From assembly GCF_010501075.1 (NCBI RefSeq), contig NZ_QVMN01000003.1, positions 386,292-450,291 of the forward strand: 64,000 nucleotides of DNA, written 5' to 3'. Positions 25,206 to 55,893 of the stretch are shown piece after piece. Each line of letters opens with the position of its first letter. Position 1 is the stretch's first letter. The notes beneath the pieces were generated by a model, which made no database searches, had not been told where the DNA came from, and saw nothing but the letters and a program-made list of their open reading frames with translations. The translations under genes and the position numbers were made by a program. This DNA comes from Dysgonomonas sp. 25 (lineage in GTDB: Bacteria > Bacteroidota > Bacteroidia > Bacteroidales > Dysgonomonadaceae).

Positions 25206-25374
25206 CCCCTGACATTAACACAAGCAATTTGGCACCCCCTCCCTGCCTCCCCCACAAGGGGAGGAGATAGGAAAAGAGTATATATTTTTACTCCCCCTCT
25301 GTTGGAGGGGGATGGGGGGAGGTGACTCTTTTTTCTAAAAAACTTCCTAAAACCTTGGATTAATCCGAAATATT
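25206..25374 (-). repeat. Inner 169-bp inverted repeat, left copy
   Basis: Read by eye, all 169 bases are the exact reverse complement of 55725-55893. The copy lies 400 bp upstream of FISUMP gene A. It includes two C-rich palindromes and the word TTCGGATTAATCC. The identity is far higher than that of the two genes it accompanies. Confidence 0.9.
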
Positions 25375-25381
25375 TACTATA

Positions 25382-25404
25382 TTTTTTTTTTTTGTGTGTG
25401 TGTG
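25382..25404. repeat. Poly-T and (GT)n tract beside the left inner repeat
   Basis: A T-run is followed by GTGTGTGTGTG. A longer (AC)n tract sits at the matching edge of the right copy (55692-55713). Homology between the two copies stops at about these tracts. Confidence 0.8.
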
Positions 25405-25495
25405 ATGTGGCTATATTGCATGCTAACTACACTGGTGTGTAGCGAATTAATATAAAATATCGTATGTTTTGTTTCTACCTGTTTCATTACTTAGG

Positions 25496-25526
25496 CAAAG
25501 GTAGTATATTTTCGGGCTAAAGCAAA
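25496..25526 (-). promoter_or_regulatory. Promoter reading toward FISUMP gene A
   Basis: On the minus strand TTTG (25526-25523) and TACCTTTG (25503-25496) are separated by 19 bp, a textbook Bacteroidota promoter. It lies downstream of the glycosyltransferase stop and on the far side of the inner repeat from gene A, inside the segment between the two inner repeats. Confidence 0.65.
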
Positions 25527-25549
25527 TATTATTTCTTTCGGATTATTGG

Positions 25550-26611
25550 TTATTGTATCTGAACCCTGTTTTGCAGATATTTTTCGAGCATTTTATCCAA
25601 TTCTGTCCATACCCGTTGAGGTGTTATCAGGTTGAATTTTTCTCTGAAAGGTATCTCTTCACTTTCAGCAACTCCGGGGTCTATAATTTCAGGGCCTATC
25701 CCTTTGAATCGTTCCTCCATATTCGGCAACCAGCGCTCTACCCCTATACTCGGCGGGAAGATGGCATACGACGGGATTTCGAAGGCCTGCGATATATGGC
25801 GCGGTCCGCCTTCGTTGCCGAAAAAGAACTGCGAATTGGCAAAAGCTGCTGCCAGTTGGCGCAACGAGTTTGCTTCTATATTGATGAAGATACGCGGGTC
25901 GCGGCCTAAATCTTCATACAATTGGTAAGCGATCTTCTTTTCCTTGTCTCCGGCAAAGTTGAATACCAATTGTACATCCTTGTATTTTTGGAGGATATTA
26001 GACAATATCTCTTTCATGTTCTCCAGCGGCCATATTTTATGGTCGAGGCGCGCGGCAACTGCGCATACGATTACAGGACGGCTGATATTTATGCCTTTCG
26101 ATATCATGTAATCCTTATATGCTTGTATTTCCTTCTCGGTGCAATAGAGCCTGAAGAGTGAATTTTCTGTTATCTTGTAATCTCCGTTCAACGGATTGGT
26201 CATCATCATCAGTTGCCTTACCATTTTCGGCTCGTGCTTATCTACCCGGTGGTTGTATATGAAGCGTGTATAGCTTTTTTTTAGCCCTATCCGGTATTTA
26301 GTCCGTAGCGAAAAGAGTGGGAAGAATAATGTATTTATCGTCGAACGGGCATCTATGATGATGTCGTATTGCCCTTCTTGCATGATGTGCCTTATCTTTT
26401 TCAGGTACCTGAAAAGCGAGTGCGTCTCTTTATCCGAGAAGGATATGACGCGATCGATGTCGGGATGATTCTCGAACAATGGCGCTATATTTTCGTTGAG
26501 TACATAATGAACTTCGCAATCGGGAATCGATTGCTTCAAGGTGGTGCAAATACTGGATGTTAATACTGCGTCGCCCACACGACGAAATCGTATAACTAAT
26601 GCTTTAGGCAT
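25550..26611 (-). CDS. Glycosyltransferase family 9 (heptosyltransferase-like)
   Basis: The 353-residue protein starts PKALVIRFRRVGDAVLTS, the GT9 N-terminal motif (RxxxxGDxxLT). It also has the C-terminal nucleotide-sugar site FFGNEGGPRHISQAFEIP. GT9 enzymes such as WaaC, WaaF and WaaQ add heptose, or in some cases other sugars, to LPS core. The exact sugar is not predictable. The gene is alone between the FISUMP cassette and the porN operon and reads on the same strand as both. Confidence 0.88.
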   Translation of the reverse strand: MPKALVIRFRRVGDAVLTSSICTTLKQSIPDCEVHYVLNENIAPLFENHPDIDRVISFSDKETHSLFRYLKKIRHIMQEGQYDIIIDARSTINTLFFPLFSLRTKYRIGLKKSYTRFIYNHRVDKHEPKMVRQLMMMTNPLNGDYKITENSLFRLYCTEKEIQAYKDYMISKGINISRPVIVCAVAARLDHKIWPLENMKEILSNILQKYKDVQLVFNFAGDKEKKIAYQLYEDLGRDPRIFINIEANSLRQLAAAFANSQFFFGNEGGPRHISQAFEIPSYAIFPPSIGVERWLPNMEERFKGIGPEIIDPGVAESEEIPFREKFNLITPQRVWTELDKMLEKYLQNRVQIQ

Positions 26612-26707
26612 ATATGTGTAATAATAAGTTTGTTAACAAGTCAACTGTTGTATATGTATATAAAAAAAGTGTGTCTCAAAAAAAAGATTAAGGTTTTTAG
26701 CTGTACC

Positions 26708-27721
26708 CTAACGTCTGTCGCGTGCCGAATATTTCGCTCCGCTACCGCCGCTGCCTTTTGCCCCTTTAGGCTGGTCGCGCTTTGTTTTGTTCTTATTCTT
26801 CGGTTTGATTCCTTTTTCAATGTCCGATTTCAGGTACGACGAATCGTTTGTCACCCAAAGGCGTTTGTCGAATTCTATCAACTCGCTCTCAATTTTCTCG
26901 CGTGCGGCCTCCAATTCTTCGGGAGTTTTGTATATCTCCGTCAGCACTTTATTGGCCATATTGCCTGTTTTGTATATTTCCCCTTCGTACATGCGCAGGC
27001 GGAAGAAATCGTCTATCGAGTTGTTGAGTACATTGTTTTTCTCCGAAACCATAATTGGCATATTCGCTGCATACGGGCGGATATTTTCGTATGGAATCCA
27101 GAATTGCGGTGCACGTTCGCCGCCTATGCCGTAGTCGTCGTAGAACGTCAGTACGGGGCAGATAGCTATTATCTTCACATCCATCGTGCCGGTCGTATTG
27201 TCGAAGTACCAGCCTTCTTTGACGTAGTAACCCATCACGTCGTTTGCGGGGATGTCGTATTCGTTGTAGACATATCCTGTTCCTTGTTGCTGGATAGGAA
27301 TATTCAGTTTTTCGAGGACGGTTTTGAAATCGACCTTGTATTCATCAGTAAACACTTCGCGCGCCGTCATATATTCGTAGACAGTCAGCTTATCCTGTGC
27401 CATCAGTTTGAATATCATGGTGTAGAGGCTCATGCGGTTGCCGATAGGCTGCGTCGGATAAACGAGCGCTGCATTGCGTCCTTTGCTGATGTCGACGAAA
27501 CGGTAAATTTCGCGCATCCATGTCGCGTTGCTCATGTCCTGTGTCTGCTCGTCGTTGAACATTTGTGCGCGGACGGTCATTTCAGGTGTTTTTGCTCCCT
27601 GTGGTTGCGATTGTTGCTGTTTCTTAGCCAAGCGGTCGCGCAGCGATTCCTGTGCAGCAGCAGTTTGTGTGCTGACAATGCAGAGGAGCAATATAATAGA
27701 TAACTGATATATTCTTTTCAT
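26708..27721 (-). CDS. porN: Type IX secretion / gliding protein PorN (GldN)
   Basis: A 337-residue periplasmic protein with signal MKRIYQLSIILLLCIVSTQT...AQ and the GldN/PorN core: MSNATWMREIYRFVDISKGR, ALVYPTQPIGNRMSLYTMIF, YEYMTAREVFTDEYKVDF. The Lys/Arg/Gly-rich tail (from about residue 310) is typical of the family. PorN binds the lipoprotein PorK to form the large periplasmic ring of the type IX secretion system. Normally porL and porM lie between porK and porN; here porN starts only 6 bp after porK ends. Confidence 0.92.
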   Translation of the reverse strand: MKRIYQLSIILLLCIVSTQTAAAQESLRDRLAKKQQQSQPQGAKTPEMTVRAQMFNDEQTQDMSNATWMREIYRFVDISKGRNAALVYPTQPIGNRMSLYTMIFKLMAQDKLTVYEYMTAREVFTDEYKVDFKTVLEKLNIPIQQQGTGYVYNEYDIPANDVMGYYVKEGWYFDNTTGTMDVKIIAICPVLTFYDDYGIGGERAPQFWIPYENIRPYAANMPIMVSEKNNVLNNSIDDFFRLRMYEGEIYKTGNMANKVLTEIYKTPEELEAAREKIESELIEFDKRLWVTNDSSYLKSDIEKGIKPKNKNKTKRDQPKGAKGSGGSGAKYSARDRR

Positions 27722-27727
27722 AATTTT

Positions 27728-29158
27728 TTACTTCTTCGATTTAGCGAAACCTAATTGCGTTCTCACGCATCTGAATCCGATATAAGAGCGGGGCTGGTTC
27801 TGATATTCCCCTTCGCGCATATCGGCACGGATATACATGCCTACGTCTTTCCACGAACCGCCTTTCACGACCTTCTTCTTCGATGCGTAAGGGTCTTCCT
27901 TGGCAGCGTTGTATTTCAGGTCGGGGTTCATATCACTCATATTCTCAAGTCCCGATTCGGTGTAAGCAGTCGAAGTCCATTCGGCGACGTTTCCGGCGAG
28001 GTCGTACACTCCGAAGTCGTTAGGCGAATACGATGCTACTTTGGCAGGAATCATATTGCCGTCCTTGGTGTAGTTCCCCTCTCCCGGTTTGAAGTTGGCC
28101 ATAAAGCAACCTTTGGATGTCTGTGTGCCTTGTATATCCCACGGATATTTGTTTTCGGTGCGTCCGTTGCGGGCAGCAAATTCGTATTCGGCTTCGGTCG
28201 GCAAGCGGTAAGGCTCGATACGGCGTGAGCCTTTCTTCTGCCCCATATAATAGAAAATTGTGCGCCAGTGGCAGAAAGCTGTCGCCTGCTCCCACGTAAC
28301 GCCTACCACCGGATATTCGTTATAGCCCGGATGCGAGAAATAGAGCCGCATGTAAGGCTCGTTGTATGCATTCTTGAAATCGTTTACCCAAACAGTCGTG
28401 TCGGGATAAATATTGGTGATTTTGGTATGTACGAAATCGTAAAGCGAGCTTAGCGGGCGGACGATGGTCTCGTTGATTGGTATGCCGCTCTCGTCTACAT
28501 AGGCGGTATCTTTCGAAATCATAATGACTTCTTCGAGATTCGGTGTTATATCCGTATTCAATATCCTATCGTTCGGATTTAAGCGGTAGCGGCGCTTTGC
28601 AGCTTCGGTGTGGTCGTACCATTCGTACATGAAATTCATCTGCATCGGATCGAGATAACTCTCGCCCGTAATCGGATGAACATGGTATATGCTGTTGATA
28701 GCAGCTATTTCTTCGTCGAGCAGGTTGCGTGTCGGTATCCGCTTGCTCCAGTCGAGATGCGGTTTTACGGGATCGCCGTATTCGTCTACGTCTATCTTGA
28801 ATGTCTCGTCATTCCCGTATTCGGGGCTGGCGAGGCGTTCGCGGATGATGGAGTCGCGTACCCAGTAAACAAACTGGCGGTACTTGGAGTTGGTGACTTC
28901 CGTTTCGTCCATCCAGAAGTTATCTACCGAAATACCTTTCGAATTGGCTTGTATGTCCCACAAAGAGTCGCCTTCGGACACGCCCATATCGAGAGAGCCG
29001 CGCGAAACCAGCACCATGCCATACGGCTTCGGTTCAGCCCACGACGAGCTGCGTTCGCCTACAACTTCGCCTCCTACGGTGTTGTTGAGCGACTTTCCGC
29101 ACGAACCGGCTATGATAAGCAGTACGCCTGCGAAAATAATATATTGTAGTTTTTTCAT
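27728..29158 (-). CDS. porK: Type IX secretion ring lipoprotein PorK (GldK)
   Basis: A 476-residue lipoprotein (MKKLQYIIFAGVLLIIAGSC, Cys20) with a formylglycine-generating-enzyme-like (SUMF1) domain adapted as in PorK: GMVLVSRGSLDMG, VDNFWMDETEVTNSKYRQF, HPGYNEYPVVGVTWEQA, YRLPTEAEYEFAARNG, GNVAEWTSTAY and WKDVGMYIRADMREG. PorK and PorN make the outer-membrane-associated ring of the secretion machine. The gene sits between porP and porN. A -7-like box is at 29183-29190, so it may have its own promoter. Confidence 0.92.
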   Translation of the reverse strand: MKKLQYIIFAGVLLIIAGSCGKSLNNTVGGEVVGERSSSWAEPKPYGMVLVSRGSLDMGVSEGDSLWDIQANSKGISVDNFWMDETEVTNSKYRQFVYWVRDSIIRERLASPEYGNDETFKIDVDEYGDPVKPHLDWSKRIPTRNLLDEEIAAINSIYHVHPITGESYLDPMQMNFMYEWYDHTEAAKRRYRLNPNDRILNTDITPNLEEVIMISKDTAYVDESGIPINETIVRPLSSLYDFVHTKITNIYPDTTVWVNDFKNAYNEPYMRLYFSHPGYNEYPVVGVTWEQATAFCHWRTIFYYMGQKKGSRRIEPYRLPTEAEYEFAARNGRTENKYPWDIQGTQTSKGCFMANFKPGEGNYTKDGNMIPAKVASYSPNDFGVYDLAGNVAEWTSTAYTESGLENMSDMNPDLKYNAAKEDPYASKKKVVKGGSWKDVGMYIRADMREGEYQNQPRSYIGFRCVRTQLGFAKSKK

Positions 29159-29182
29159 AATCTGTTTCGTGTAATCCGGCTA

Positions 29183-29190
29183 CAAAGTTA
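29183..29190 (-). promoter_or_regulatory. Candidate -7 box before porK
   Basis: TAACTTTG on the minus strand fits TAnnTTTG and lies 25 bp before the porK ATG. No -33 TTTG is visible. Confidence 0.4.
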
Positions 29191-29248
29191 GCAGTTAAAA
29201 GATTATCCGATTATATTTTTTTCTTTTTTGTTATTCTCTAATCTATTT

Positions 29249-30196
29249 TTATAATACCCTGATGCTTTTGTGCCGTCCGTCCACTTTCTTCTTAACGATT
29301 GGTATACAATACCGTACCGAAAATTCGTGCGAACCGCTGCTGGCTTTTGCAATTTCCGATGTCGAAAGGTCGAACGAATAGCCCGCCTCGATATTTTTCA
29401 ATTTCAATCCCAGCAAAAACACAAAACCGTCATCCTTCCTCCATGTAACACCTCCGCTGAATAAATTGTTGTATTCGGCGCGTGCTGTGACATCTATTTG
29501 CGTCACGATGGCATCCGATTTCACAAGAAAGGACGGCTGCATTTCAAATAACGAATTATTTATCGGGATATTGCATCCACCAGTCAGATAATATGCCCGC
29601 CCGATAAATGACCTGTGTGTATCGTCTAATTCATATTTTGGCTCCCAAAGGTGCGTGACGGAGAAACCGGCATAATACCATGGCGTTATCCACGATATAC
29701 CCAACCCCATGTCGATTGTTTTGTCTTCGCCGCCGGTCGGTTTGGCGGGGTCGTTCTTGTCGTGATAGTCGCTGTCGGGGATATGGATGCCGGCAGCATC
29801 GAAGTCGATGCTCATCGAAGAGCCTTGCAGGCCGATGTTGAGCGTTTTTCCGTTTTTGAAGTCAAATTTGTAGGCATATTGCAGCGAGATATTGGTATTG
29901 GAGAACAATCCGATTTTCTCGTTGAAAAAATGGATACCCGCACCATGCTTTTTATCGAGGAAGTTGAAAGGCATATGTGCCGATGCGATAGTTGTTTTGG
30001 GGGCATTGGTAGTCCCTATCCATTGCATGCGGTGCATGGCGGAGATGTCGATATTGTTTGTCTCGCCCACGAACGACGGATTATAGTATGTCTTTGCGCG
30101 CCAGTATTGGCTGACCTGTGCGTCCCACTGGCCATAGGCCGACAGGGCGCATAAGAATATGAGCGAAAGAAATAGTATAATCGTTTTGAGCTTCAT
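29249..30196 (-). CDS. porP: PorP/SprF-family type IX secretion outer membrane protein
   Basis: From the ATG at 30196 (the first in-frame codon, TTG, is unlikely) the protein has 315 residues. It has a signal peptide ending CALSAYGQ, then the PorP hallmark WDAQVSQYWRAKTYYNPSFVG, HRMQWIGTTNAPKT and HGAGIHFFNEKIGLFSN. The rest is beta-barrel-like and ends with SHEFSVRYCIPI. PorP is required for type IX secretion and is usually the first gene of porPKLMN, as here. Confidence 0.92.
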   Translation of the reverse strand: MKLKTIILFLSLIFLCALSAYGQWDAQVSQYWRAKTYYNPSFVGETNNIDISAMHRMQWIGTTNAPKTTIASAHMPFNFLDKKHGAGIHFFNEKIGLFSNTNISLQYAYKFDFKNGKTLNIGLQGSSMSIDFDAAGIHIPDSDYHDKNDPAKPTGGEDKTIDMGLGISWITPWYYAGFSVTHLWEPKYELDDTHRSFIGRAYYLTGGCNIPINNSLFEMQPSFLVKSDAIVTQIDVTARAEYNNLFSGGVTWRKDDGFVFLLGLKLKNIEAGYSFDLSTSEIAKASSGSHEFSVRYCIPIVKKKVDGRHKSIRVL

Positions 30197-30298
30197 CAAT
30201 AAAAACAGTATTCCGACTGCAAAGAAAGTGATTATTTATTGATTATTAACGGTTGTGGGCGAGATAAATTGTGTAAGTGGTTTGTGTAATAAAAAAGT

Positions 30299-30334
30299 CC
30301 CCCTCTTACGGAGGGGGATATAGGGGGAGGTGGG
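30299..30334. repeat. CCCCCTC/GAGGGGG palindrome after FISUMP gene C
   Basis: This block differs by one base from 22636-22671 and occupies the same place, directly before the stop codon of a minus-strand FISUMP gene. The sequence similarity continues into the codons GTTAGTCTTTCTTGCA. Confidence 0.8.
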
Positions 30335-31600
30335 TTAGTCTTTCTTGCAGCGGACGGAGAGTAATATTCGCCTCCCCTCCCATCTTCGATCGATGTAGGC
30401 AATAGAGTCTCTGATAATATACCGTACCCATGCTTGATTATTATTCATATAACTACTACTTGCAGTCCAAAAATATGCATGGTCACCGTAATATCCTATT
30501 GCGTTATTAAGGGCTGCTCCCGCACGGATGGCGTTAAATCCACCTTGTTTTGGAGATAAACTTTTCCCCTCGGTAGCGCCGACAATGCTGCCTATAGGTT
30601 CACATATAGAAAGCATGGCGCCAGCATGGCTATCAGTTGCTCCATTAGGACGGAGGTAGATAGCAGGGGTGGTGAATCCGTATTCCCAGCCTGATGACCA
30701 AGGGATCCAAGCATTTTTTTCACTTTCTGTATATTCGCTGTATAAATGAGCATTGTTATAGATTTCCCGTTCCAAATCGTTCCATTCTTTGTCGCTGGGT
30801 AGATGCCATCCATCTGGGCAAATGCCTCGGATAGGAGTAGATATAAGATCGCTGCCGTCAGATGCTTGTCCTTGTTCGAGATTTCCGGGGTTTGGTGTTT
30901 GCCCTGTTCCGGTTCCCATATTGATAGCTGCAGGCCAATTGTAGAGTATTCCGTTCTTCTTTTTACTTGGCCACTCCGAAGATGGATGATCGGCAAGTAT
31001 ATAAGTAACAAGGGTTCCACCAGTAGGGGTTGCTGTTTCAGCGTAAACGTAATGTTTATTCGTGTTACTGCTCGCAGCAGAGTGTACGTAGTTATTAAAA
31101 CGACCACCTTCGTGGATGGGATCGGGTACGTAGCGTACGCTTTCTAACATCCAATCGCCGGCAATAGAGCCAAAATTACGTGCTAAATAAACTTCATTGT
31201 CTCTATCGTCAGTAAATTCATATACACCTGCAGCCAAGCCTTCGTCCTTGAGGCTTTGCCATCTGTTGCCGTTCCAAATATACAAGCCGTCACCTTGTGC
31301 GCTAAAGTCTACACAGGCATTGGTGTTATACACTAAAAGTCCGATGTGCTTGTCCAAGTCCCATGTGTCGCTTGCTCCGACAGACTGGGCTAATTCGGTA
31401 GGGGTGGTAGGTGTAAGATTAGTCAACTTTACCCTCGGCAGCCCAAGTCCCTTCGTCGTCGTTGCTCCCTCTGTCAGTTGTAGCAAAGCGCCATCCAATG
31501 GTTTCTGGTTGCTCCCGATCGTTACTTGTGCATTAATTGTTGTCGTAAAACATAAAATGATAAGTGCAAAAAATATTTGCGTTGTAGTTTTTTTGTTCAT
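30335..31600 (-). CDS. Secreted FISUMP-domain protein, copy C
   Basis: A 421-residue protein with a signal peptide (IFFALIILCFTTTINA/Q), the same N-terminal block as copies A and B (VTIGSNQKPLDGALLQL, LGLPRVKLT, HIGLLVYN, GLYIWNGNRWQ) and the C-terminal FISUMP domain (GILYNWPAAINMG, GICPDGWHLPSDKEW, YFWTASS, LLSVRCKKD). It lacks the Ig-like middle of copy A, so it is shorter. It follows the porP operon on the same strand and shares the 3' palindrome with copy A, but I do not see the 169-bp repeat upstream. Confidence 0.88.
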   Translation of the reverse strand: MNKKTTTQIFFALIILCFTTTINAQVTIGSNQKPLDGALLQLTEGATTTKGLGLPRVKLTNLTPTTPTELAQSVGASDTWDLDKHIGLLVYNTNACVDFSAQGDGLYIWNGNRWQSLKDEGLAAGVYEFTDDRDNEVYLARNFGSIAGDWMLESVRYVPDPIHEGGRFNNYVHSAASSNTNKHYVYAETATPTGGTLVTYILADHPSSEWPSKKKNGILYNWPAAINMGTGTGQTPNPGNLEQGQASDGSDLISTPIRGICPDGWHLPSDKEWNDLEREIYNNAHLYSEYTESEKNAWIPWSSGWEYGFTTPAIYLRPNGATDSHAGAMLSICEPIGSIVGATEGKSLSPKQGGFNAIRAGAALNNAIGYYGDHAYFWTASSSYMNNNQAWVRYIIRDSIAYIDRRWEGRRILLSVRCKKD

Positions 31601-31810
31601 GAAATATTTGAATTAAATCTTAAAACCAAGTTTGTGTACTAAATATGCTGAAAATTTAAATTGTTGTTATAGATAATGCCCCTGCAAAGGAACAAATTTT
31701 ATTTGAAAGAGCAAATAACCTAAACGATATTCTGTAAATAACTTATCGATAATGTGCAACTTTCTGCTTATTTTTGAGTCTATTATATATAAGCTGAAAT
31801 AACAAAAGGT

Positions 31811-32788
31811 ATGAAAAAAACGATAATTCTTTTGCTGGCATTGCTGTTTGTCGCCGGAGTTGCGCAGGCGCAAAAAGAGTTTAAATTGAAAAGTCCTGAA
31901 GAGGGTTCGGTTTCGTTATATGGCAGAGTCGGGTTTCTTGATTCGCGCGAAAATAGGCATTCGATAGGCGAAGATGTCATCGAAAATCCACCGTTTGCTG
32001 TTCAGTTGCAAAACTATGTCAATCAACTCGAAATGGCATCGGATGCGAATAAGATATTCGTTTTACAACTGCGGGATTTGTATTTCTTTAAAGGGAAAGA
32101 GGATGGCAAAGCCGTAGGCCTGTGCCGTATACGTGCCAATGCATACGACCAGCAAGGCGACGATTATTATTTTATCAATCGGATAGATGTTGTTGTTACA
32201 GCCAAACCTAAAGAAATATATGCCGAGGCGGCGGATGCGTTAGGTACTTTTATTCGCGAAAGTATATCGGCTGCCCGCATGGGCGATTTTCCTTTTACCT
32301 TGGCGGAAGTGAAAGATATAGACACTTTTGAAAAACAAGATATTCCCCTGTTTAATGCCCCGGCCTTTGCCGATGGCGTGTATTACGATTATCTTGACTT
32401 TGCCGATCAAAAACCTACGTCCATAGAAATGCAACCGAAGATGAAGGATGAAACATTGAAAGAGGTAAAAATTTACGACGAAAGCAAAAAGAAATGGCAA
32501 AAGCTCTCCCCCGACAATGTGTATGCAGTTGTTATTGGCGGGCAGCCTTACATCGCTTACGATGGGAAATTCTGGGCGGGCTATCTGAGCGATAATAATT
32601 TCCTGTTCAATATTTCTTATAAAGTAAACTCAGGTAACGGAGGATTTTCGATAGGTATCGGCATGGGTGGCGGTTCGCGTCATGGCGGTATGGGTGGCGG
32701 AATAGGTTATACTTTCGGCGCAAAGAAGACTGTGACCCAACTGATGAAAATAGATCACCTGAATGGTACGGCAATCCCTGCCGAATAG
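31811..32788 (+). CDS. Secreted protein of unknown function
   Basis: A 325-residue protein with a clear signal peptide (TIILLLALLFVAGVAQA/Q). I do not recognise a domain. The body alternates strands and helices. The C-terminal part has a Gly-rich run of about 25 residues (GGFSIGIGMGGGSRHGGMGG) before FGAKKTVTQLMKIDH, perhaps a membrane-active or flexible segment. A -7-like TATTTTTG lies at 31769-31776, 35 bp before the ATG. The 210-bp gap before it, shared with the divergent FISUMP gene, shows nothing else. Confidence 0.75.
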   Translation: MKKTIILLLALLFVAGVAQAQKEFKLKSPEEGSVSLYGRVGFLDSRENRHSIGEDVIENPPFAVQLQNYVNQLEMASDANKIFVLQLRDLYFFKGKEDGKAVGLCRIRANAYDQQGDDYYFINRIDVVVTAKPKEIYAEAADALGTFIRESISAARMGDFPFTLAEVKDIDTFEKQDIPLFNAPAFADGVYYDYLDFADQKPTSIEMQPKMKDETLKEVKIYDESKKKWQKLSPDNVYAVVIGGQPYIAYDGKFWAGYLSDNNFLFNISYKVNSGNGGFSIGIGMGGGSRHGGMGGGIGYTFGAKKTVTQLMKIDHLNGTAIPAE

Positions 32789-32851
32789 CTAAATATTGTT
32801 ACTTTTCGAACCTTTTTGCTGATAGTGTAACTGTCTGTGGCGCTTTTTTTT

Positions 32852-32859
32852 TACTTTTG
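32852..32859 (+). promoter_or_regulatory. Candidate -7 box before the LytM-like gene
   Basis: TACTTTTG fits TAnnTTTG and lies 57 bp before the ATG at 32917; no clear -33 box. Confidence 0.4.
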
Positions 32860-32916
32860 TACATTAGAAGAAGTGTACACCTGGATGAAATTCGGATATA
32901 AGCTACACAGTTGCAG

Positions 32917-33792: not shown

Positions 33793-33809
33793 AAAAATAT
33801 GAAAACAAT

Positions 33810-39488: not shown

Positions 39489-40805
39489 ATGAAAGTTTCT
39501 TTTGAAAATTTAGGTGTAGTCAAGCGAATTGATTTAGACTTGTCTAAAAAGTTATCTGTTTTTTGTGGTCCTAATGGAACGGGGAAGACATATGTATGTT
39601 ATGCTGTGTATGAGTATATAAGACCAATTATTGTAAATAGTGGCGTATTCGACCTGGATCTTCTTATTAAAGAAAAGAAATTGGTGATTTCTTTGGATTA
39701 TGATATGCTTTTTGAATTAAAAAAAGAATATAATAAAAGGTTGCCTTTGGATTATGCTTTTGGAGTGAAAAAAGAAAGCTTTTTCTCTGACTTTAATATC
39801 TCTTTAAATGTTGATAAGGAAGAGTTTATTTCTAAATTGAGATATTCTAAGTTTATCTTTTCACTAGCGAATGAGAATATGAAGATTAGTTATGAAAAAG
39901 ATGCAGGAAGCGATGAATTGAATATTATTTTGGAGAATTTTGAGAGTTTAGATTCTTCTGATTCTTTGGAAACAGCTGATGTTTTTCAAAATTCTCTATT
40001 AGTTAAGTGCTTGTCTTTTTCTTCTTTATTGAAAGTTTTTATTTTGCCTGTAGAAAGAAATTCAGCTTACACATTTGCTAATGAGTTAGCCAAGAATAGA
40101 TTGTCATCAGATGTTTATAGTAATCGTTATCCACGTGCTATTCAAGACACTTTGGCAACTGCGATTGACTTAAACCATATAAAGAAACAAACGTCAGAAT
40201 ATTATTGGCTTGCAGAGGAAATAGAGAATACTATATTGCATGGAGATGTAAAAGTTTCTGAAAATGGAGAATTACAATTTGCCCCAAGAAGAGGAAGAAA
40301 TACAGTTTTATCTATTCATCTTTCGGCATCCATTATCAAGAACTTATCGGGTTTATTGATATATCTTAAGCATCAAGCTAGGAAAAATGATTTGTTGATT
40401 ATTGATGAGCCGGAGCTAGGTTTGCATCCTGATAATCAAATTCTATTGGCTCGTATCTTTGCAAAATTGATAAATAATGGTATTCGCCTTTTAATTAGTA
40501 CCCATAGCGATTATATTATCAGAGAACTGAATAATTTAATAATGTTATCAGGTAATACTCCTGAAATAGAAAAACATCGTGAAGAGTGGGGCTATAAAGA
40601 AGATGAGTGCATTAAACCAGAGGATGTAGGTGCCTACTTATTCAATTTCACAGAAGAAAATCCGTCGCATGTTGTAGTTGAAAATCTCTCTGTGGACGAA
40701 ACAGGTTTTGAAGTAAAAACAATAGATGAAGCTATTTGTAACTTGAATTCACTTTCAGAAGACATTTATTATGCGTTGAAGTATGGCGAAGACAAGATGC
40801 AATAA
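39489..40805 (+). CDS. AAA-family (OLD/RecF-like ABC-type) ATPase
   Basis: A 438-residue ATPase of the AAA_15/AAA_21 type found in many defence modules. It has Walker A GPNGTGKT (27-34), a helical middle, the signature-like LSASIIKNLSGLL (278-290), Walker B LLIIDEPELGLHP (302-313) and the H-loop STHSDYIIREL (H339). There is no TOPRIM nuclease domain, unlike true OLD proteins. The gene is clearly more AT-rich than its neighbours (many TTT, AAA and ATT codons), a sign of transfer. Its 3' end overlaps the next gene by 23 bp. Confidence 0.85.
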   Translation: MKVSFENLGVVKRIDLDLSKKLSVFCGPNGTGKTYVCYAVYEYIRPIIVNSGVFDLDLLIKEKKLVISLDYDMLFELKKEYNKRLPLDYAFGVKKESFFSDFNISLNVDKEEFISKLRYSKFIFSLANENMKISYEKDAGSDELNIILENFESLDSSDSLETADVFQNSLLVKCLSFSSLLKVFILPVERNSAYTFANELAKNRLSSDVYSNRYPRAIQDTLATAIDLNHIKKQTSEYYWLAEEIENTILHGDVKVSENGELQFAPRRGRNTVLSIHLSASIIKNLSGLLIYLKHQARKNDLLIIDEPELGLHPDNQILLARIFAKLINNGIRLLISTHSDYIIRELNNLIMLSGNTPEIEKHREEWGYKEDECIKPEDVGAYLFNFTEENPSHVVVENLSVDETGFEVKTIDEAICNLNSLSEDIYYALKYGEDKMQ

Positions 40806-41358
40806 TCCTGATAGGATAGAGAGAATAAGAAAGATTATCTCTGATTCTTTTTTAGCAAAGGATCAGACAAAAATCCTTGAAGATAAATCTTGCGATGCAG
40901 GGCATTCTTTTTATATGGAAAGGAAGATTGTTCCGTTTTCTGAGTCTGAGTATGTGCTTTATCGGTTCGATCCCGATGAGAGTGATATATTTCCCTATTT
41001 CAAGGAAACGAAGGATTTAAAGAAGATATGTGATTATGTTCTATTTGTTGAGCATGGAGATGCCTTTTATACCTTTCTTATTGAATTGAAATGGGGAAGT
41101 AAGTCTTCATTAAAGCAGCTAGAAGCTTCTGAAATGTTCATTAAACATATTTTGGAGCATGCAGGAAGGATCGATTATTGTATAGAAAATCCTATTTATA
41201 GAAAAATAAGGATAAATGAAAGCCAAGCAAAAGGAAAAATAAAAGGAACAACAAAAGTTAAGGAACTTACTTTTGATGAAAATAATATTTTAGTATATAC
41301 AAGGATGACAGATTTTAGAATAAAGGAGATATTACATTGTAATAATAGAGTATCTTGA
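40783..41358 (+). CDS. PD-(D/E)XK nuclease-like partner of the AAA ATPase
   Basis: A 191-residue protein with no obvious named family. Residues 82-111 read CDYVLF...FLIELKWGSKSSLKQ, giving D84, E101 and K103, the spacing and strand context of a PD-(D/E)XK nuclease (Asp, then E-x-K on the next strand). A charged helix follows. This is a motif-level reading and not a sequence match. The gene starts inside the ATPase gene, which suggests coupled translation and a complex. It shares the AT-rich composition. ATPase plus small nuclease pairs are common in phage defence; the function here is inferred. Confidence 0.6.
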   Translation: MAKTRCNNPDRIERIRKIISDSFLAKDQTKILEDKSCDAGHSFYMERKIVPFSESEYVLYRFDPDESDIFPYFKETKDLKKICDYVLFVEHGDAFYTFLIELKWGSKSSLKQLEASEMFIKHILEHAGRIDYCIENPIYRKIRINESQAKGKIKGTTKVKELTFDENNILVYTRMTDFRIKEILHCNNRVS

Positions 41359-46425: not shown

Positions 46426-46459
46426 CTGAAATTTAACAAAACCATATTCCAAAAAGAGA

Positions 46460-47041: not shown

Positions 47042-47042
47042 T

Positions 47043-47570: not shown

Positions 47571-47616
47571 GCAATTATCTGGAACGGCTAATTATAATAA
47601 AACCAATAACTAAGAC

Positions 47617-50600: not shown

Positions 50601-50622
50601 GACTAACCTCGAAAACAAATAA
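47617..50622 (+). CDS. Large periplasmic TPR-repeat protein
   Basis: A 1001-residue protein with a signal peptide (LLIVLACICTAQIAYA/Q) and tetratricopeptide-like repeats over almost its entire length, for example AEFMILASDYYMG, LYNQGREMFLNNNYSGTV, EAYFWRGEIYYNQGDYSAAV, ADALNRIGDTYLHNRNYREA and PKYMDDALIYASGIEFDNKDYDAAY. Such proteins are scaffolds for envelope complexes. The outer membrane barrel gene starts 5 bp later, so the two probably act together; a link to cell envelope assembly is inference. Confidence 0.88.
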   Translation: MRKLLIVLACICTAQIAYAQRSVYDTHPQRLYNQGREMFLNNNYSGTVNTLREFVDHSKDTQLNEEAEFMILASDYYMGTPGIGNKLKGYMEQYPGTIHRSQLSLYIGSIHFQEKDWDKTLYWLSQADLDHLNVAEQEDYTYRMAYSSLQIGKYKEKAKQMFGMLERNSDKYREPASYYYAYLDFQDGNYKEAAAVFRKLQSKPEYKENASFYLIQSSFLDGNIDETISTGKAYVSEYPKSDNAPEVYRLLGNCYYKRGDLVNSVLNYERFLQSGNEVFREDMYQLADAYYQNNTYQQAIGALKMVASNDDLLGQAGYMLLGQCYLKTGSDANALMAFDAASHATFNRSISEDALYNYVLLVSKGSVSAFDESIDAFQRFLNEYPNSKYSGEINNLLANTLLSTKNYAAALNAIARIKSPNQKILEAKQMILTQQGIQEYINNDYTKALNDFNAAIAMGTYNKEASDEAYFWRGEIYYNQGDYSAAVRDYSSYISTASTSQQNYALALYNLGYCYFQQKNYTQAATFFKRYTSSEKNKNTKTYADALNRIGDTYLHNRNYREAEAYYTQAVGANPGSGDYAEFQKALVKGLQRDHRGKITILNDMMAKYPDSQYYDSALMEKSKAYVALNNESDAIPVLEKLLREYPRSAIAPQAGVLLGQLYFNTDNPQKSIAAYKQVISTYPNTEEARISIKSLEGVYKEVNDISGYANYMNSLGGNYKVSASRQDSLTYLAAEALYLKGQTTQAKSALGKYLQAYPNGGYSGEANYNLGLMAFEAKDHQTALPYFREAIKANNPKYMDDALIYASGIEFDNKDYDAAYSTYEHLSQAGTTADNRGIGQLGMLRCAYLTNKDQEVIDAADKVLANSKLSASITNEARFYRGRSLNRVGRFDEAIKDLTEVGEDTRNAFGAESQYILAQIYYDRGMYDTAEKQVTGFMQKGTPHQYWMARSLIVLADSYAAKGDYFQARQYLESLNTNYKGGEADIRQMVEERMTNLENK

Positions 50623-50627
50623 GGATT

Positions 50628-52424
50628 ATGAAAGCAATATATAAAATCTCCATTATAATAGGTCTGGCCGTAACAGCCCTTTCGGCGAATGCGCAACAAA
50701 CGTCGCGCGATACGGTTTTGCATCGTCAGGTAACTGTTCAGCGCGACTATAACCCGACCATTCAGGATGCTTCCAAGATAAATACTACTCCCGCTGTTTA
50801 CGAGCCGGTAGTGTCGGCTAAGAACCTGAATTTTCAGTTTGGGGCACCCCGCCTGAATATCAATAATATGCATCTCGGCGAATCGAAATCGGGCGATGTG
50901 AAGTCTGATATAGAGTTCGACAAACGCAGAGGTTATTTCAACTTCGGCTTCGGGATGTATGCCAACATAGATGCTTCGGCGGGCTATCGAGTAGTGAATG
51001 CGGAGAATGACAAGCTGAACGTTTACGGTTCGTTCAATGCTACTTCGGGTAAAATCAATTACCTCAAAAAAGGATTTGACCGCAAGAAGGAAAAAGCCAA
51101 AGATACCGAGTTTAAGATAGCGTTGGATTATCAGCACAAATTCGAGCCGTCTACGCTGGATATTAAAGCTTCTTACCTGAACGATTCGTATAACTACTAC
51201 GGTAATCCGTTTATCGATCCGTCGTTTGTCGGTACATTGCCCGATGTCAGCAAAAAACAAGGTTTCTCTACCTTCGGATTCGGTGTAGGGTTGAAGTCAA
51301 ACGACGGCAACAATATCATCCGCTATGATGGTACTATCGGCTACGATTATTTCAAGAATAAATATGGCCCGACCATCAATGACGACGGGCTGAAAGGCGG
51401 CGTAATCCATTTCGACGGAGATGTCAATGCCGATTTGGATGGCGACAAGGTTGTCGGAATCAAAGCCCGCATTATGCATCAGTCTATCAGCGATGCCACA
51501 TCGGCTATCCCTGTCTTTGCCGACGAATCGAAACATTCGTTGCTGAACCTGTATGCTGCCCCTTATATCGCTTTCGAAGGAATGAACTGGAATGCAAGTC
51601 TGGGAGTGAAAGTCGGAAGCGTATTCGATGAAAAGAACAGCTTTGTTGTTGCGCCGGACATCTACGCCTCGGTGAAGTTAGGTGACTGGAATACGGTCTA
51701 TGCCAGCATCACGGGAGGTGTGAACGAGAATACTGTAATGCAGATGTTCCGTGAAAACAAATTCGTCAATCCGCTGAACAGGGTAGGCTATTCCAAAACT
51801 TTGTACGATTTGAATGCCGGATTCAAACTGGGCGCTTTCGAAGGTGTCGAGTTCGAAGCCTTTGCTGGATATAAACAAGTAAACAGAGATCATTTGTTTA
51901 CTACCAATGATTATCAATCTTCTGCCGGTGCTTATAGCTGGGGCAACCTGAGCAACGTGGTATATGCAGACGTTTCTACCGGCAAATTCGGTATTTTGGG
52001 TAAAACGACGCTTATCCCGTATACTAACCTTTGGGCACGCCTGACAGGATATTCTTATACCGTGAAGTACAAAGGCGGAAACTTAACCAGTACGGAGACG
52101 ATGAATTACCCTACTTCGAAAAAAGCATGGGGACGCCCGACTTTCACAATGGAACTGAATGCCGATGTTGTGGATGCTATTATCCCTGACCTGACTATCT
52201 CGGCCAATTATCTGTTGGCAGGTGGACGCAAGGCCTATTGGAATGGCGGTGTTGTATCGATGAAAGCAATCAACGAATTGAACTTCCGCGGCGAATACCG
52301 TGTCTTAGACTGGGTGTCGGTGAATGTGCACTTCAATAATGTCTTGAATCAGCGGTACGAGCAGTATTACGGCTATGCTTTGCAAGGATTTAATGCGATG
52401 GGAGGAGTGAGCCTGAAGTTTTAG
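50628..52424 (+). CDS. TonB-dependent receptor-like outer membrane beta-barrel
   Basis: A 598-residue outer membrane protein with a signal peptide (MKAIYKISIIIGLAVTALSANA/Q). A short N-terminal region (TVQRDYNPTIQDASKINTTP) is followed by many alternating strands and a TonB-receptor-like end (INELNFRGEYRVLDWVSVNV, then a terminal strand ending SLKF). No plug domain of normal length is visible, so it is more likely a plain barrel than a true TonB receptor. It is coupled to the TPR gene by 5 bp. Confidence 0.82.
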   Translation: MKAIYKISIIIGLAVTALSANAQQTSRDTVLHRQVTVQRDYNPTIQDASKINTTPAVYEPVVSAKNLNFQFGAPRLNINNMHLGESKSGDVKSDIEFDKRRGYFNFGFGMYANIDASAGYRVVNAENDKLNVYGSFNATSGKINYLKKGFDRKKEKAKDTEFKIALDYQHKFEPSTLDIKASYLNDSYNYYGNPFIDPSFVGTLPDVSKKQGFSTFGFGVGLKSNDGNNIIRYDGTIGYDYFKNKYGPTINDDGLKGGVIHFDGDVNADLDGDKVVGIKARIMHQSISDATSAIPVFADESKHSLLNLYAAPYIAFEGMNWNASLGVKVGSVFDEKNSFVVAPDIYASVKLGDWNTVYASITGGVNENTVMQMFRENKFVNPLNRVGYSKTLYDLNAGFKLGAFEGVEFEAFAGYKQVNRDHLFTTNDYQSSAGAYSWGNLSNVVYADVSTGKFGILGKTTLIPYTNLWARLTGYSYTVKYKGGNLTSTETMNYPTSKKAWGRPTFTMELNADVVDAIIPDLTISANYLLAGGRKAYWNGGVVSMKAINELNFRGEYRVLDWVSVNVHFNNVLNQRYEQYYGYALQGFNAMGGVSLKF

Positions 52425-52603
52425 AGGCTCGTTAACATACTCATCCATAGCTTCTTTTTAGACTTTTTGAAAAATGTTCGTTAAAATTATTCTGTTTTCA
52501 TACTAATTTATACAAAAAATATGTTTACTTTGCCTAAGTTTTAACGTTGAAAGTTAAATGCGTTTTTTGTATAATTAATTAATAATTCAAAATTTTTACA
52601 AAC

Positions 52604-52918
52604 ATGAAAAAAGTTTTATTTGGTCTAGCAATAGCAACAGCTGCTTTGCTTTCTAGCTGTGGTGGTGTTCAGTCTCCAATCGGTGGTGCTCTTTACACAG
52701 ATGTAACTTCAGGTCATTCAGTAACAAGCAACACTTTAGGTTCTAAAGTTGGTCGTGCTACTGCTAAAGGATACCTTGGTTTGATCGCTACAGGTGATGC
52801 AAGCATCGAAACTGCTGCTAAATCTGCAGGTATCAGAAAAGTTACTCACGTAGACCAATACGCTAACTCTATTCTTGGTATCATCAACACTTACGAAATT
52901 GTTGTTTACGGAGAATAA
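52604..52918 (+). CDS. TRL-like small lipoprotein
   Basis: A 104-residue lipoprotein (MKKVLFGLAIATAALLSSC, Cys19) with the TRL-like family pattern SPIGGALYTDVT, GSKVGRATAKGYLGLIATGDASIETAAKSAGI, then HVDQYANSILGIINTYEIVVYGE. The function is unknown. Codons are strongly biased and a strong terminator follows, both signs of high expression. The 180-bp AT-rich gap upstream has a weak -7-like TTACTTTG at 52525-52532. Confidence 0.88.
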   Translation: MKKVLFGLAIATAALLSSCGGVQSPIGGALYTDVTSGHSVTSNTLGSKVGRATAKGYLGLIATGDASIETAAKSAGIRKVTHVDQYANSILGIINTYEIVVYGE

Positions 52919-52941
52919 TCATTAGCAATAATGATAAAGAA

Positions 52942-52969
52942 AAGAAACCCATTGCGGGTTTCTTTTTTT
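52942..52969 (+). terminator. Rho-independent terminator after the TRL-like gene
   Basis: AAGAAACCC (52942-52950) and GGGTTTCTT (52956-52964) form a 9-bp stem with a 5-nt loop, followed by a T-run. Confidence 0.9.
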
Positions 52970-53007
52970 ATTTCCTATATTTGCCTTAACTTATAATACA
53001 GAGAATT

Positions 53008-53538
53008 ATGGTAAAGAAAACTTTTTTGATGATTGCCGCTTTCATGCTGCTTGCAGCCGCTTCGTTGCAGGCGCAGGATGTGAAAGGGAAATATATATTG
53101 CGTTCTGTTGAGGGCGGTTCTATCGTGTTCATATATCCGCAGGAAGGGTATAAAAGCAAGGAGATGGCGAGCAAGCTCGTTTACGATCTCACCTATTCTT
53201 CGGTGACGGATAGCGTAGCGGTCAATTTCACATACACCAATAAGGTGCAAACTCCGGCTCCGCTCGATTCTATCGTATTTGTGACCTCTTCGGCCCGTTA
53301 TGCGGCTCCGGCATCAATGCTGTATATAGAGCCTAAGAAAAGTGACAAATGGGAGAACAGGGCGTCTGCCAATTTCCCGGGCGATGATATAAAAGCGATT
53401 ACGGCCGAACAAAATCCGGCACAAATTATACTTTATATTCAGGGTAAAGAATATCTGTTCGAGATTCCCGAAAAAGTTTGGCGGAAGAATACCGGAATAA
53501 TCAATAAGGTATTCGATGTAGCTAAATACAATTATTAA
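53008..53538 (+). CDS. Secreted protein of unknown function
   Basis: A 176-residue protein with a signal peptide (FLMIAAFMLLAAASLQA/Q) and an all-beta body. No family is recognised. Its stop overlaps the stop of the convergent lipoprotein gene by 4 bp, so no terminator separates them. Confidence 0.75.
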   Translation: MVKKTFLMIAAFMLLAAASLQAQDVKGKYILRSVEGGSIVFIYPQEGYKSKEMASKLVYDLTYSSVTDSVAVNFTYTNKVQTPAPLDSIVFVTSSARYAAPASMLYIEPKKSDKWENRASANFPGDDIKAITAEQNPAQIILYIQGKEYLFEIPEKVWRKNTGIINKVFDVAKYNY

Positions 53539-54179
53539 TTTTTGAAGAAGTCTTGTGTCTGGGTGTACATATCATCCAGATTCTCCTTGAGCGTGACCAA
53601 TGTCTGATGTTGCTGATGTTCAGGTGGATATTGGTTCATTCTTTTTGTTATTTCTTTCTCTGCCTCGTCCTTTTTGTTCTGATAGAGGTAAATACTGATC
53701 TTTGTGATGAAGTATTCACCTTTTTCCCCATCCATAGCCAGTTCGGCGTTGCATTTCTGGATAGCCTTGTCGAAGTAGCTGTTGGCCAATGTTTCGTCAT
53801 TTTTTAATTTCGCCGAAACGCCGTTGTAGAGAAGGCGGTCTATGCTTTCGGGGTCTTGATTCGTTGTCTTATCCTGCAAAGTGAACGCTTCTTTCTTCTT
53901 TCCCAAAGCAGTTAATAGTTGCGATTTGCGGATGGTGCCGAAATATTGTCCCTCCTCCGTGCGGTCTAAAGACAATACCATGTCACTCAACTCCAACGCG
54001 TGAAGCATGGAAGCTGTATCCTTATTCGCCTGAAAATCCTTGAATATTGCTGTTATGGAGTCGTTTAGCTTTAGGATTGTTTCGTCGTCGGCCAATTGTC
54101 CTGCCGATGCCGGTTTCTTGTCCTGACAACTGAAAAGTAACAGTCCCGATAAGAGTATGAGTGCAGATATGTATTTCAT
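53535..54179 (-). CDS. Lipoprotein with TPR-like helices
   Basis: A 214-residue lipoprotein (ALILLSGLLLFSC, Cys18) with helical repeats of TPR type (AELAMDGEKGEYFITKISIY, LYQNKKDEAEKEITKRMNQY). No specific family is recognised. Confidence 0.75.
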   Translation of the reverse strand: MKYISALILLSGLLLFSCQDKKPASAGQLADDETILKLNDSITAIFKDFQANKDTASMLHALELSDMVLSLDRTEEGQYFGTIRKSQLLTALGKKKEAFTLQDKTTNQDPESIDRLLYNGVSAKLKNDETLANSYFDKAIQKCNAELAMDGEKGEYFITKISIYLYQNKKDEAEKEITKRMNQYPPEHQQHQTLVTLKENLDDMYTQTQDFFKN

Positions 54180-54228
54180 TTTGATATTGTTTTTTTAACC
54201 GGAAGCAAAGGTATATATTTTCCTGCTT

Positions 54229-55407
54229 TTATCTCAATCTTTTGCGCTCAAATACTTTCATCGAGAACAATCGGTATACAATGGTGCTGAGCAGGCATAG
54301 TCCCGAAGATACGAGGAATAGGGTTTCGAACGAAAAATGTCCGCTGATATATCCGCCTATCAGCATGCCGAGCGCCAGCCCCAAATCGAATCCGACAAGG
54401 TAGGTCGAATTGGCTGTTCCGCGCTGATTGTTGTGTGCCATATTGATATAGAGCGTTTGCAGCGCCGGGAACATCATCCCGAATCCCACGCCGATAAACA
54501 ATCCCGCCGTACAGAAAGCATAGATATTATGATAGAGGGCGAATACACCGAAAGCGGCCGCAACGATAAGCATGGCGGTGGTGTTGACGAGGTGTATCTT
54601 GCCTTTGTCTACCAATTTCCCGGCAAAGATGCGCGATACGATAATGCCGCCTGCCCAGAAAAGGAAAAATATACCTGCATTCGGGATGCTGATTTCTTTT
54701 CCGTATTGGGCTACGAAAGGCCCTATTGTACCCCATGCAAAGGTGGGTAGCAGCTGGTTGAGGAAGATAGGCCACCCTTTGACAAGGAAAAAGCGGTCGA
54801 GCGAAATTTTCTCGCGTTCTACTTTCGGCCTCTCGGGAGCTCTGATCAGCATAACGGCGATAATGCCTAATATCCCCATCGAAATGGCGCTCCACAGGAG
54901 GATTTGGAAGCCGTAGTTGTTGTAGATATGGATAGCGATAAAAGGGCCGATAGCCATTGCCACGTTCATAAATGTGCCGTAAAAGCCTATCCCTTCGGCG
55001 CGTCGCTCGGATGGTGTGACGTCGATGGCCAAGGTGCTGGACGAAACAGTGGACAGCCCCCATGTGACGCCGTGCATGAACCGTACAATAATAAAAATAA
55101 GTATGGTGGTGGCATAGAAATATCCGAAGAAAATAAGGACGTAGCAGGCGAAAGAGATCAGTAATATTTTCTTTCGCGAAAAGAGGTCGACCATATATCC
55201 CGAGAAAGGGCGGACAAACATGAGCGCGATGGCATACGATGCCAGCACAATACCTGTCTGCGATTGCGGCACTCCCATCTGTTCCGTTATGTAAAGCGGG
55301 ATGGAGGGCATAAGCAGGTTGAACGAGCAGGCCATAAGAAAATTGACCATGCAGACATTGAAGTAGTTGAGCGTCCAGAGTTTAGGCTTGGGCTGTTGTA
55401 TGTCCAT
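54229..55407 (-). CDS. Major facilitator superfamily transporter
   Basis: The ATG at 55407 gives 392 residues starting MDIQQPKPKLWTLNYFNVC; the longer frame begins at a non-canonical upstream codon. Twelve hydrophobic segments are visible, with MFS motif A-like SGYMVDLFSRKKILLISF between helices 2 and 3 and again AGKLVDKGKIHLV after helix 8. The closest pattern is drug/sugar efflux carriers of the bacterial MFS_1 group. The cargo is unknown. A -7-like TACTTTTG is at 55433-55440. Confidence 0.88.
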   Translation of the reverse strand: MDIQQPKPKLWTLNYFNVCMVNFLMACSFNLLMPSIPLYITEQMGVPQSQTGIVLASYAIALMFVRPFSGYMVDLFSRKKILLISFACYVLIFFGYFYATTILIFIIVRFMHGVTWGLSTVSSSTLAIDVTPSERRAEGIGFYGTFMNVAMAIGPFIAIHIYNNYGFQILLWSAISMGILGIIAVMLIRAPERPKVEREKISLDRFFLVKGWPIFLNQLLPTFAWGTIGPFVAQYGKEISIPNAGIFFLFWAGGIIVSRIFAGKLVDKGKIHLVNTTAMLIVAAAFGVFALYHNIYAFCTAGLFIGVGFGMMFPALQTLYINMAHNNQRGTANSTYLVGFDLGLALGMLIGGYISGHFSFETLFLVSSGLCLLSTIVYRLFSMKVFERKRLR

Positions 55408-55691
55408 GTTGTATCTTTTGCGAAAAATTGCACAAAAGTAATAAAATGAAATCACCCGGGCTTCTTTTCTTCCTTTTTATTCTTGTCGTTTTTGAGAAGT
55501 TTAACAGAGGGCTTTATTTTGCATAAGGCAATTTTCGGTTAATTTTTTAGGCTAAAATTGCTTTTTCGAAGAATTTTGTGTTCCTTTGTGGTGTCACACA
55601 AAATGAATATCGTGCAGAAAAACAGGAGGTTTACGGATATTTTGTCAGCTAATATATTGTATTCTAATATGATATATTCTGCACCTTACGT

Positions 55692-55713
55692 ACACACACA
55701 CACACACACACAC
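55692..55713. repeat. (AC)n tract beside the right inner repeat
   Basis: Eleven AC units sit at the outer edge of the homology between the two cassettes, matching the (GT)n tract at 25391-25404. Length could vary by slippage. It is about 880 bp from the gene start, so a direct effect on translation is unlikely. Confidence 0.85.
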
Positions 55714-55724
55714 GAAATATAATG

Positions 55725-55893
55725 AATATTTCGGATTAATCCAAGGTTTTAGGAAGTTTTTTAGAAAAAAGAGTCACCTCCCCCCATCCCCCTCCAACAG
55801 AGGGGGAGTAAAAATATATACTCTTTTCCTATCTCCTCCCCTTGTGGGGGAGGCAGGGAGGGGGTGCCAAATTGCTTGTGTTAATGTCAGGGG
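55725..55893 (+). repeat. Inner 169-bp inverted repeat, right copy
   Basis: Exact reverse complement of 25206-25374 by eye. Immediately beyond it the two copies diverge for about 20 bp and then share the next hairpin. It lies 700 bp upstream of FISUMP gene B. Confidence 0.9.

Follow-up and report, generated by a model that had tools for sequence, protein, structure and literature searches.

What is the function of two identical sequences of 169 bp that face each other across 30 kb in the genome of Dysgonomonas sp. 25? Both lie in a stretch of 64,000 nucleotides (contig NZ_QVMN01000003.1, positions 386,292 to 450,291; the window in what follows, with positions counted from its first letter), each upstream of a gene with a FISUMP domain (PF09603) that is directed out of the segment, gene A on the left and gene B on the right (Table 1). 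An earlier note on this DNA, made from the sequence alone, had described this arrangement, judged the repeat flanks to be more alike than the genes, and proposed that inversion of the 30-kb segment might switch surface-protein expression. The description holds: the copies are exact reverse complements at 169 of 169 bases, each stands before an outward-directed FISUMP gene, and the flanks are more alike than the genes. The proposed switch fares less well. The 169-bp repeat is the leader part of an upstream module that occurs about 45 times in the genome, ahead of genes of one secreted-protein family. Since this block stands before about 40 related genes, a repeat-length switch in the (CA)n tract beside each repeat appears to be a better guess than a 30-kb flip.

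The upstream module and its gene family

The genome is available as a draft of 58 contigs (C1 and so on below) with N gaps, comprising 3,740,605 bases (3.74 Mb). The 169-bp repeat gave 65 matches in it at E<=0.001: two exact copies, six that are nearly full-length at 89-95% identity, and partial ones. The earlier note had also considered that the repeat might be a many-copy element unrelated to FISUMP genes; many-copy it is, but tied to these genes. In an alignment of 16 repeat copies and their flanks, the upstream edge is marked in nearly all by a (CA)n tract, behind which comes a D-AATATAR-like box; one row (C55:243140) is a tandem second copy without the tract. At C55:242973-243250 the repeat stands twice in tandem across a single N, probably an assembly gap. 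The module thus reads, in order, conserved box, (CA)n tract (n mostly 10-12), ATATAR box, and leader containing the 169 bp. The conserved box, around TATCAATATG, lies about 20 bases ahead of the tract, within a block of about 45 bases in the alignment.

Genome-wide, there are 57 + 75 windows of (CA)9, and the pattern (CA)9-YRN-AATWTAR occurs, at up to two mismatches, at 41 sites, compared with 4 + 9 for the reversed control. Tracts were surveyed in 607 kb of own-genome DNA picked around FISUMP genes, repeat copies and (CA)9 matches, which is not a random sample. This DNA holds 46 tracts of (CA)6 or longer, or 45 after dropping C3:12303, an exact duplicate of C56:306816. Like simple-sequence-repeat contingency loci, most of them are long and pure repeats of a short unit: 42 of the 45 are (CA)9-14 (n=10 in 16, 12 in 15, 11 in 9, 9 and 14 in one each), and three are (CA)6. 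The surveyed tracts account for 128 of the 132 (CA)9 windows, and about one long tract must therefore lie outside the survey; tracts of 6-8 units were searched only within it. Other dinucleotide tracts of 6 units or more are absent from the surveyed 607 kb. The exact pattern (CA)7-CG-DAATATAR is absent from 100 other genomes of the family, and the pattern one CA unit shorter is absent from the collections genome_contigs and viral_contigs, where records of this genome may be left out. We also considered a hairpin before the tract. The best stems in 43 upstreams average 5.8 bp, compared with 4.7 in shuffles, and we claim no structure because only some upstreams reach significance.

The tracts are linked to one family by place and strand. 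In 33 of 45 cases, the same strand encodes an N-terminal motif, QVTIGS..P..GALLDLK, no more than 2.5 kb further on (324-1359 bases, median 714), and six further tracts have a FISUMP domain downstream on the same strand, at 835-1830 bases. Altogether, 39 tracts precede family genes, each member with its own repeat and conserved flanks; five face a contig end within 0.8 kb, which leaves 40 evaluable tracts and a single misfit. On the opposite side of the tract, the motif was found in none of the 45. The family is not defined by the FISUMP domain alone, since the genes behind seven tracts encode the family N-terminus with a C-terminus ending in ...PTCP in place of FISUMP (examples of this type lie at C21:497479-498516, C5:29304-30413 and C56:176144-177376). 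Counted from the genes, the surveyed DNA contains 47 motif-bearing members (two C3 duplicates dropped), of which 33 have a tract within 1.5 kb, 13 have none and one could not be judged. PF09603 has 59 matches in the genome, 58 of them above the cut-off; the number of genes is nearer 55, because C3 repeats the end of C32 (two genes counted twice) and one gene is split into two matches. Across the genus, only one genome (G020, 65 matches) exceeds these 59 matches; G011 has 42, G013 has 30, and the other 21 have 0-18.

Conserved spacing between the boxes

For the 43 tracts with upstream DNA, spacing was taken as the distance between the upstream box and the ATATAR (or ATTTAR) box that follows the tract. 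Among the 40 of these with n>=9, it is 45 bases in 16, 46 in 12 and 48 in 9, with 44, 49 and 50 occurring once each; 37 of 40 thus show one of three values although n varies. The three tracts with n=6 give 45 (gene A), 46 (C1:14093) and 40. The same distance is reached at n=10, 11 or 12 because a longer tract comes with a shorter stretch ahead of it: tract length is negatively correlated with upstream distance (r=-0.72), and none of 20,000 permutations (37 distinct upstreams) was equally tight. An alignment-free scan found these modes again, in 18, 7 and 9 of 40 tracts; the anticorrelation was weaker there (r=-0.41), and C9:3613 was clearly misplaced. For gene A, a scan with a position weight matrix (PWM) put the upstream box at another place than the MAFFT alignment. 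The distance between the boxes is conserved, and the number of repeat units is not.

Exceptions to the modal spacing are few. Two modules of the 48-base class are off by 2-base steps, at 46 (C4:13542) and 44 (C21:499417). C1:61736 and C43:217793 both have 22 bases before the tract and differ in n (10 vs 12) and distance (46 vs 50). Such 2-base deviations would be the steps expected of slippage. In 15 pairs of modules the upstream 50 bp are at least 90% alike, and n differs in 8 of these pairs. The modules that would be out of register are C4:13542, C21:499417, C43:217793, C21:184629 and C1:75290.

A sister form in relatives

The FISUMP loci of relatives in the genus (204 kb) contain almost no long tracts, and the two that were seen are (AG)31-32. 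(AG)12 occurs in 17 of 24 other genus genomes and is absent from the window genome. In 24 of 26 distinct upstreams, TGAAAATTTGGNNGTTAGNNNTATTTTNYT stands directly before (AG)13-33 with at most 5 mismatches in 24; of the other two, one has the box 2 bases closer (by eye) and one has no box. Of 101 family genomes, 19 contain box plus AGAGAG (17 of the genus, and 2 among the 6 of one other genus); the reversed control has no match. The whole window genome lacks box plus AGAGAG, and its surveyed 607 kb lack the AG box by itself even when 5 mismatches are allowed. Genes were identified behind 27 distinct AG sites, chosen non-randomly as all nine listed tracts of G005, four of G007 and the first listed site of other genomes. 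Of these sites, 13 precede TonB-dependent SusC-type genes, 10 precede genes with the FISUMP-family N-terminus, and 4 precede others. A FISUMP domain was found in three of these 10 proteins, both of those from G007 and one other. A tandem FISUMP pair in G007 has n=22 and 29 behind 200-bp upstreams that are 88.5% identical. Such long (AG)n tracts, with the fixed 30-base box ahead of them and SusC-type TonB transporters or FISUMP-like genes behind, were seen in genomes G005-G023, for example at loci L278-L289.

Interpretation

Given the place and strand of the module, its link to one family, the conserved distance, the few 2-base deviations and the parallel (AG)n form, we read the tract as a putative length-sensitive promoter spacer that can be retuned by slippage, with a rough probability of 0.6. 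The boxes would be promoter or activator sites, and (CA)n would be the spacer that brings the two into register. Slipped-strand gain or loss of CA units would shift a module into or out of register, so that family members would change their expression one by one. We infer three things here: a role of the boxes in driving transcription, slippage of the tract, and control of expression by register.

Several observations weigh against this reading. One tract, the (CA)10 at C9:3613, leads to other genes and to no member of the family, and the 13 family genes without a tract in the surveyed DNA include the target of a diversity-generating retroelement (DGR; see below). Most tracts stand at modal spacing, as would be expected of low instability or of strong selection just as much as of a switch, and gene A, reduced to (CA)6 and a run of A, still holds the distance of 45. 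The anticorrelation could reflect substitutions at the 5' edge of an inherited stretch of fixed length. Tract lengths come from one gapped draft assembly of one strain. Most of the FISUMP genes examined in relatives have no long tract. To our knowledge, the boxes match no Bacteroidota promoter consensus.

The best of the alternatives, which we nevertheless consider rather unlikely, takes (CA)n as inert low-complexity filler: only the total distance would matter, and slippage would be too rare to act as a switch. It would account for the many modules at modal spacing and for the spacings of 45 and 46 that survive the loss of CA units at gene A and C1:14093 (both n=6). However, at least 9 pure units are retained in 40 of 43 upstream-complete tracts, where unselected substitution should break tracts, and near-identical upstreams differ in n. 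In addition, FISUMP-like and SusC-type genes of the relatives are preceded by a long tract of another dinucleotide.

We give about even odds to a broader scheme, in which the genus would have a dinucleotide-repeat contingency system at surface-protein promoters. Most species would use (AG)n just behind the fixed 30-base box before SusC-type and FISUMP-like genes, and the window species would have replaced this form by a (CA)n spacer between boxes at 45-48 bases before about 40 FISUMP-family genes. Slippage would retune each gene, while the DGR would rewrite one member.

Recombination between copies

Inversion of the 30-kb segment was the earlier note's own explanation: homologous recombination between the inverted repeats would give each of the two genes the upstream box and CA tract of the other. 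The identity over 169 bp is exact, and the two tracts differ, gene A having (CA)6 and a run of A and gene B (CA)10. Beyond the repeat the likeness of the pair continues, reaching 93.3% when 254 columns are compared (25156-25408 vs 55944-55692). Weaker inverted matches lie inside the leaders (25002-25098 vs 56418-56322, 84.5%) and 3' of the genes (22443-22542 vs 58853-58754, 90%). Nearby modules are more alike in general. Over the 190 bp behind the tract, 11 pairs less than 40 kb apart have a mean likeness of 0.766, compared with 0.615 for 809 others (permutation p 0.0014). Eight of the close pairs are inverted and three direct; the five most alike are all inverted, the window pair among them, and similar inverted pairs occur elsewhere in the genome at distances of 2.5, 4.8 and 16 kb. 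Nearby inverted copies thus look homogenised, in line with the earlier note's suggestion of recent homogenisation. The greater likeness of close pairs could stem from gene conversion, from local duplication, or from the loss of direct pairs by deletion.

Against inversion as the main switch stands that the pair represents two of about 45 modules, that both genes have a full module whichever way the segment lies, and that many other copies could recombine with each of the two. Invertible promoters have short inverted repeats around a promoter and a linked recombinase; here the repeats lie 30 kb apart, around genes, and no recombinase family was found among the 24 window open reading frames (ORFs) scanned with Pfam, a subset of those in the window. 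The assembly shows a single orientation at these loci. We therefore retain the link to FISUMP genes from the earlier proposal, and regard the inversion switch itself as improbable. Under the spacer reading, the opposed position of A and B at 30 kb would come from the chance divergence of two family members, and their identical leaders would result from recent recombination (gene conversion) or duplication, apparently commoner between nearby inverted copies; inversion of the interval would be a possible side effect rather than the purpose.

Gene order in relatives was compared as well. Of 24 other genus genomes, one has the GT9 protein that flanks the left repeat (at E<=1e-60, on a short contig), and 20 have the MFS protein. 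In 13 stretches around the relatives' MFS genes (12 of 15-19 kb and one of 4.5 kb), gltX, the helicase and GT9 are unmatched at E<=1e-20. As these stretches show none of the window neighbours beside MFS, neither orientation can be called ancestral. In contig C3, a stretch of 11,856 bp that also forms the end of C32 runs into one of 7,291 bp that C56 carries as well, both without a difference. They meet in 91 shared bases of the gene B leader, and gene B is there connected to another leader. C3 may be a recombinant form, or the assembler may have used the same DNA twice; a second odd join about 7 kb further along C3 favours the artefact.

A mobile or REP-like (repetitive extragenic palindromic) intergenic element that accumulated near FISUMP genes would explain the copy number, the many short GC-rich palindromic repeats in the leaders and the leader-motif fragments that also lie before the DGR avd gene. 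We consider it very unlikely, since 39 of 40 evaluable tracts keep a fixed order, strand and place with respect to one gene family, and since the left boundary lies, by eye, at a box of conserved spacing and not at terminal repeats accompanied by a target duplication. Slightly less likely still is a short-read assembly artefact behind the exact identity of the pair, as might be suspected from the 58 contigs and N gaps, from C4 and C55 starting at a (CA)n tract and from C3 repeating other contigs without a difference, because different flanks on both sides, with likeness down to 93% over the 254 columns, indicate two assembled loci, and the family link is independent of the identity of the pair.

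Comparison with known systems

Haemophilus hif and Neisseria porA are spacer-length switches, in which the distance of promoter elements depends on a simple repeat between them. The arrangement described here is alike in that a simple repeat lies between (putative) promoter elements and would set their distance; it differs in that hif and porA are single genes, whereas here a whole family has 45-48 bases between its boxes. In Mycoplasma gallisepticum, as far as the account in PMC6258824 covers it, each paralogous surface lipoprotein gene of the vlhA family is preceded by (GAA)n with conserved flanks and 6-12 units; the repeat number varies, and 12 units are linked to expression. Compared with this account, the likeness lies in a large surface family, a simple repeat of its own for each gene, conserved flanks and a narrow range of units. 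The differences are that vlhA has the trinucleotide GAA and our family the dinucleotide CA, that the proteins are unrelated and the phyla distinct, and that most modules here stand at one box-to-box spacing.

Phase variation in Bacteroides, according to the portions of a 2025 review that concern it, proceeds by DNA inversion, with invertases acting on promoters of SusC/SusD and capsule genes (PMC11868660). Set beside these portions, the present system also concerns surface proteins of Bacteroidales under stochastic control, which is putative here, but it has no invertible promoter and no invertase family in the scanned window ORFs, and its repeats measure 169 bp, lie 30 kb apart and belong to a set of about 45 copies. 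If the spacer reading is true, repeat-tract control of surface-protein families would be a second mechanism in Bacteroidales beside DNA inversion. It would then be relevant to phage receptors and, through the SusC-type genes, to nutrient uptake, and modules in register and out of register could be predicted from sequence. We found no description of such a repeat-tract system in the open-access literature, a scope outside which most subscription papers and preprints lie.

Features of the locus and of related loci

In this assembly gene B is disrupted: a stop stands as the third codon after the apparent ATG, and near 57.4 kb the frame is broken.

Table 1. Positions of the modules, genes and related elements discussed in the text (window positions unless a contig is named).
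Feature	Position	Strand	Remark
Gene A upstream box (divergent CACCAGTGTA form)	25428-25437	-	MAFFT alignment of 43 upstreams
Gene A tract	25393-25404	-	(CA)6, then run of 12 A
Gene A ATATAG box	25377-25382	-	45 bases from upstream box, the modal spacing despite the shortened tract
169-bp repeat, left copy	25206-25374	-	Start of gene A leader, read towards the gene
Remaining gene A leader	24808-25205	-	Mosaic of short repeats
Gene A	22672-24807	-	711 aa; signal-like N-terminus with QVTMGS motif; C-terminal FISUMP (PF09603, E 9e-15)
Gene B upstream box (TTCTAATATG)	55662-55671	+	Alignment and PWM scan
Gene B tract	55693-55713	+	(CA)10C
Gene B ATATAA box	55717-55722	+	45 bases from upstream box
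169-bp repeat, right copy	55725-55893	+	Start of gene B leader
Gene B	~56591-58614	+	FISUMP family; broken in assembly, open pieces 56606-57406 and 57421-58614
Third FISUMP gene of window	30335-31600	-	No tract of (CA)6 or longer ahead in window sequence
DGR, FISUMP target	C5 (L081): 3075-5120		
DGR, avd-like ORF	C5 (L081): 5515-5853		
DGR, template	C5 (L081): 6221-6406		
DGR, reverse transcriptase domain	C5 (L081): 6776-7477		
Contig C3	C3:1-19409		Matches C32:442448-454359 and C56:306272-313922

Contig C5 carries a complete DGR, with a FISUMP target, an avd-like ORF, a template and a reverse transcriptase. Over 177 aligned bases, target and template differ at 20 of 53 template A positions and at none of the 124 others. 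Gene A differs from the template at 30 of 56 A and at 29 of 130 other positions, and a BLAST search of the genome with the template matched neither gene A nor gene B; the two genes are not present targets of this DGR. As a cause of the whole family we rejected the DGR, since one DGR fits one target and its template has no other close FISUMP match. The genome resembles DGR target families, as far as the sources describe them (PMC8144416, PMC6642488), in that one FISUMP gene is a clear target, and differs in that genes A and B are without a matching template. The region before the avd-like ORF of this element contains a piece of the 169-bp repeat's leader motif, and a second RVT_1 protein is encoded at C32:137113-137661.

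A model of the FISUMP domain of gene A reached a pLDDT (predicted local distance difference test) of 67.6 and a pTM (predicted template modelling score) of 0.75. With this model, Foldseek returned no PDB match at E<=0.001 in a test for a C-type lectin fold, and the domain has no sequence relative in the PDB at E<=0.01.

By Pfam, the 30-kb segment encodes, among others, GT9, GldN, an FGE-sulfatase-domain protein, PorP/SprF, the third FISUMP protein, DXP reductoisomerase, an M50 protease, MTHFR, a DnaX-type delta prime subunit, PSP1, NUDIX, a TPR protein and MFS. At 26708-30196, the genes for PorP/SprF, the FGE-sulfatase-domain protein (which we take to be PorK/GldK-like) and GldN are consecutive, with no room for PorL and PorM; in type IX secretion loci, the genes for these two lie between K and N. 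An Rfam scan of the window yielded a cobalamin riboswitch (RF00174, 10510-10746) and one tRNA, and nothing else. At 39489-41358, the ORF of an AAA_15 ATPase overlaps an ORF of 191 aa without a Pfam family, perhaps as a defence pair.

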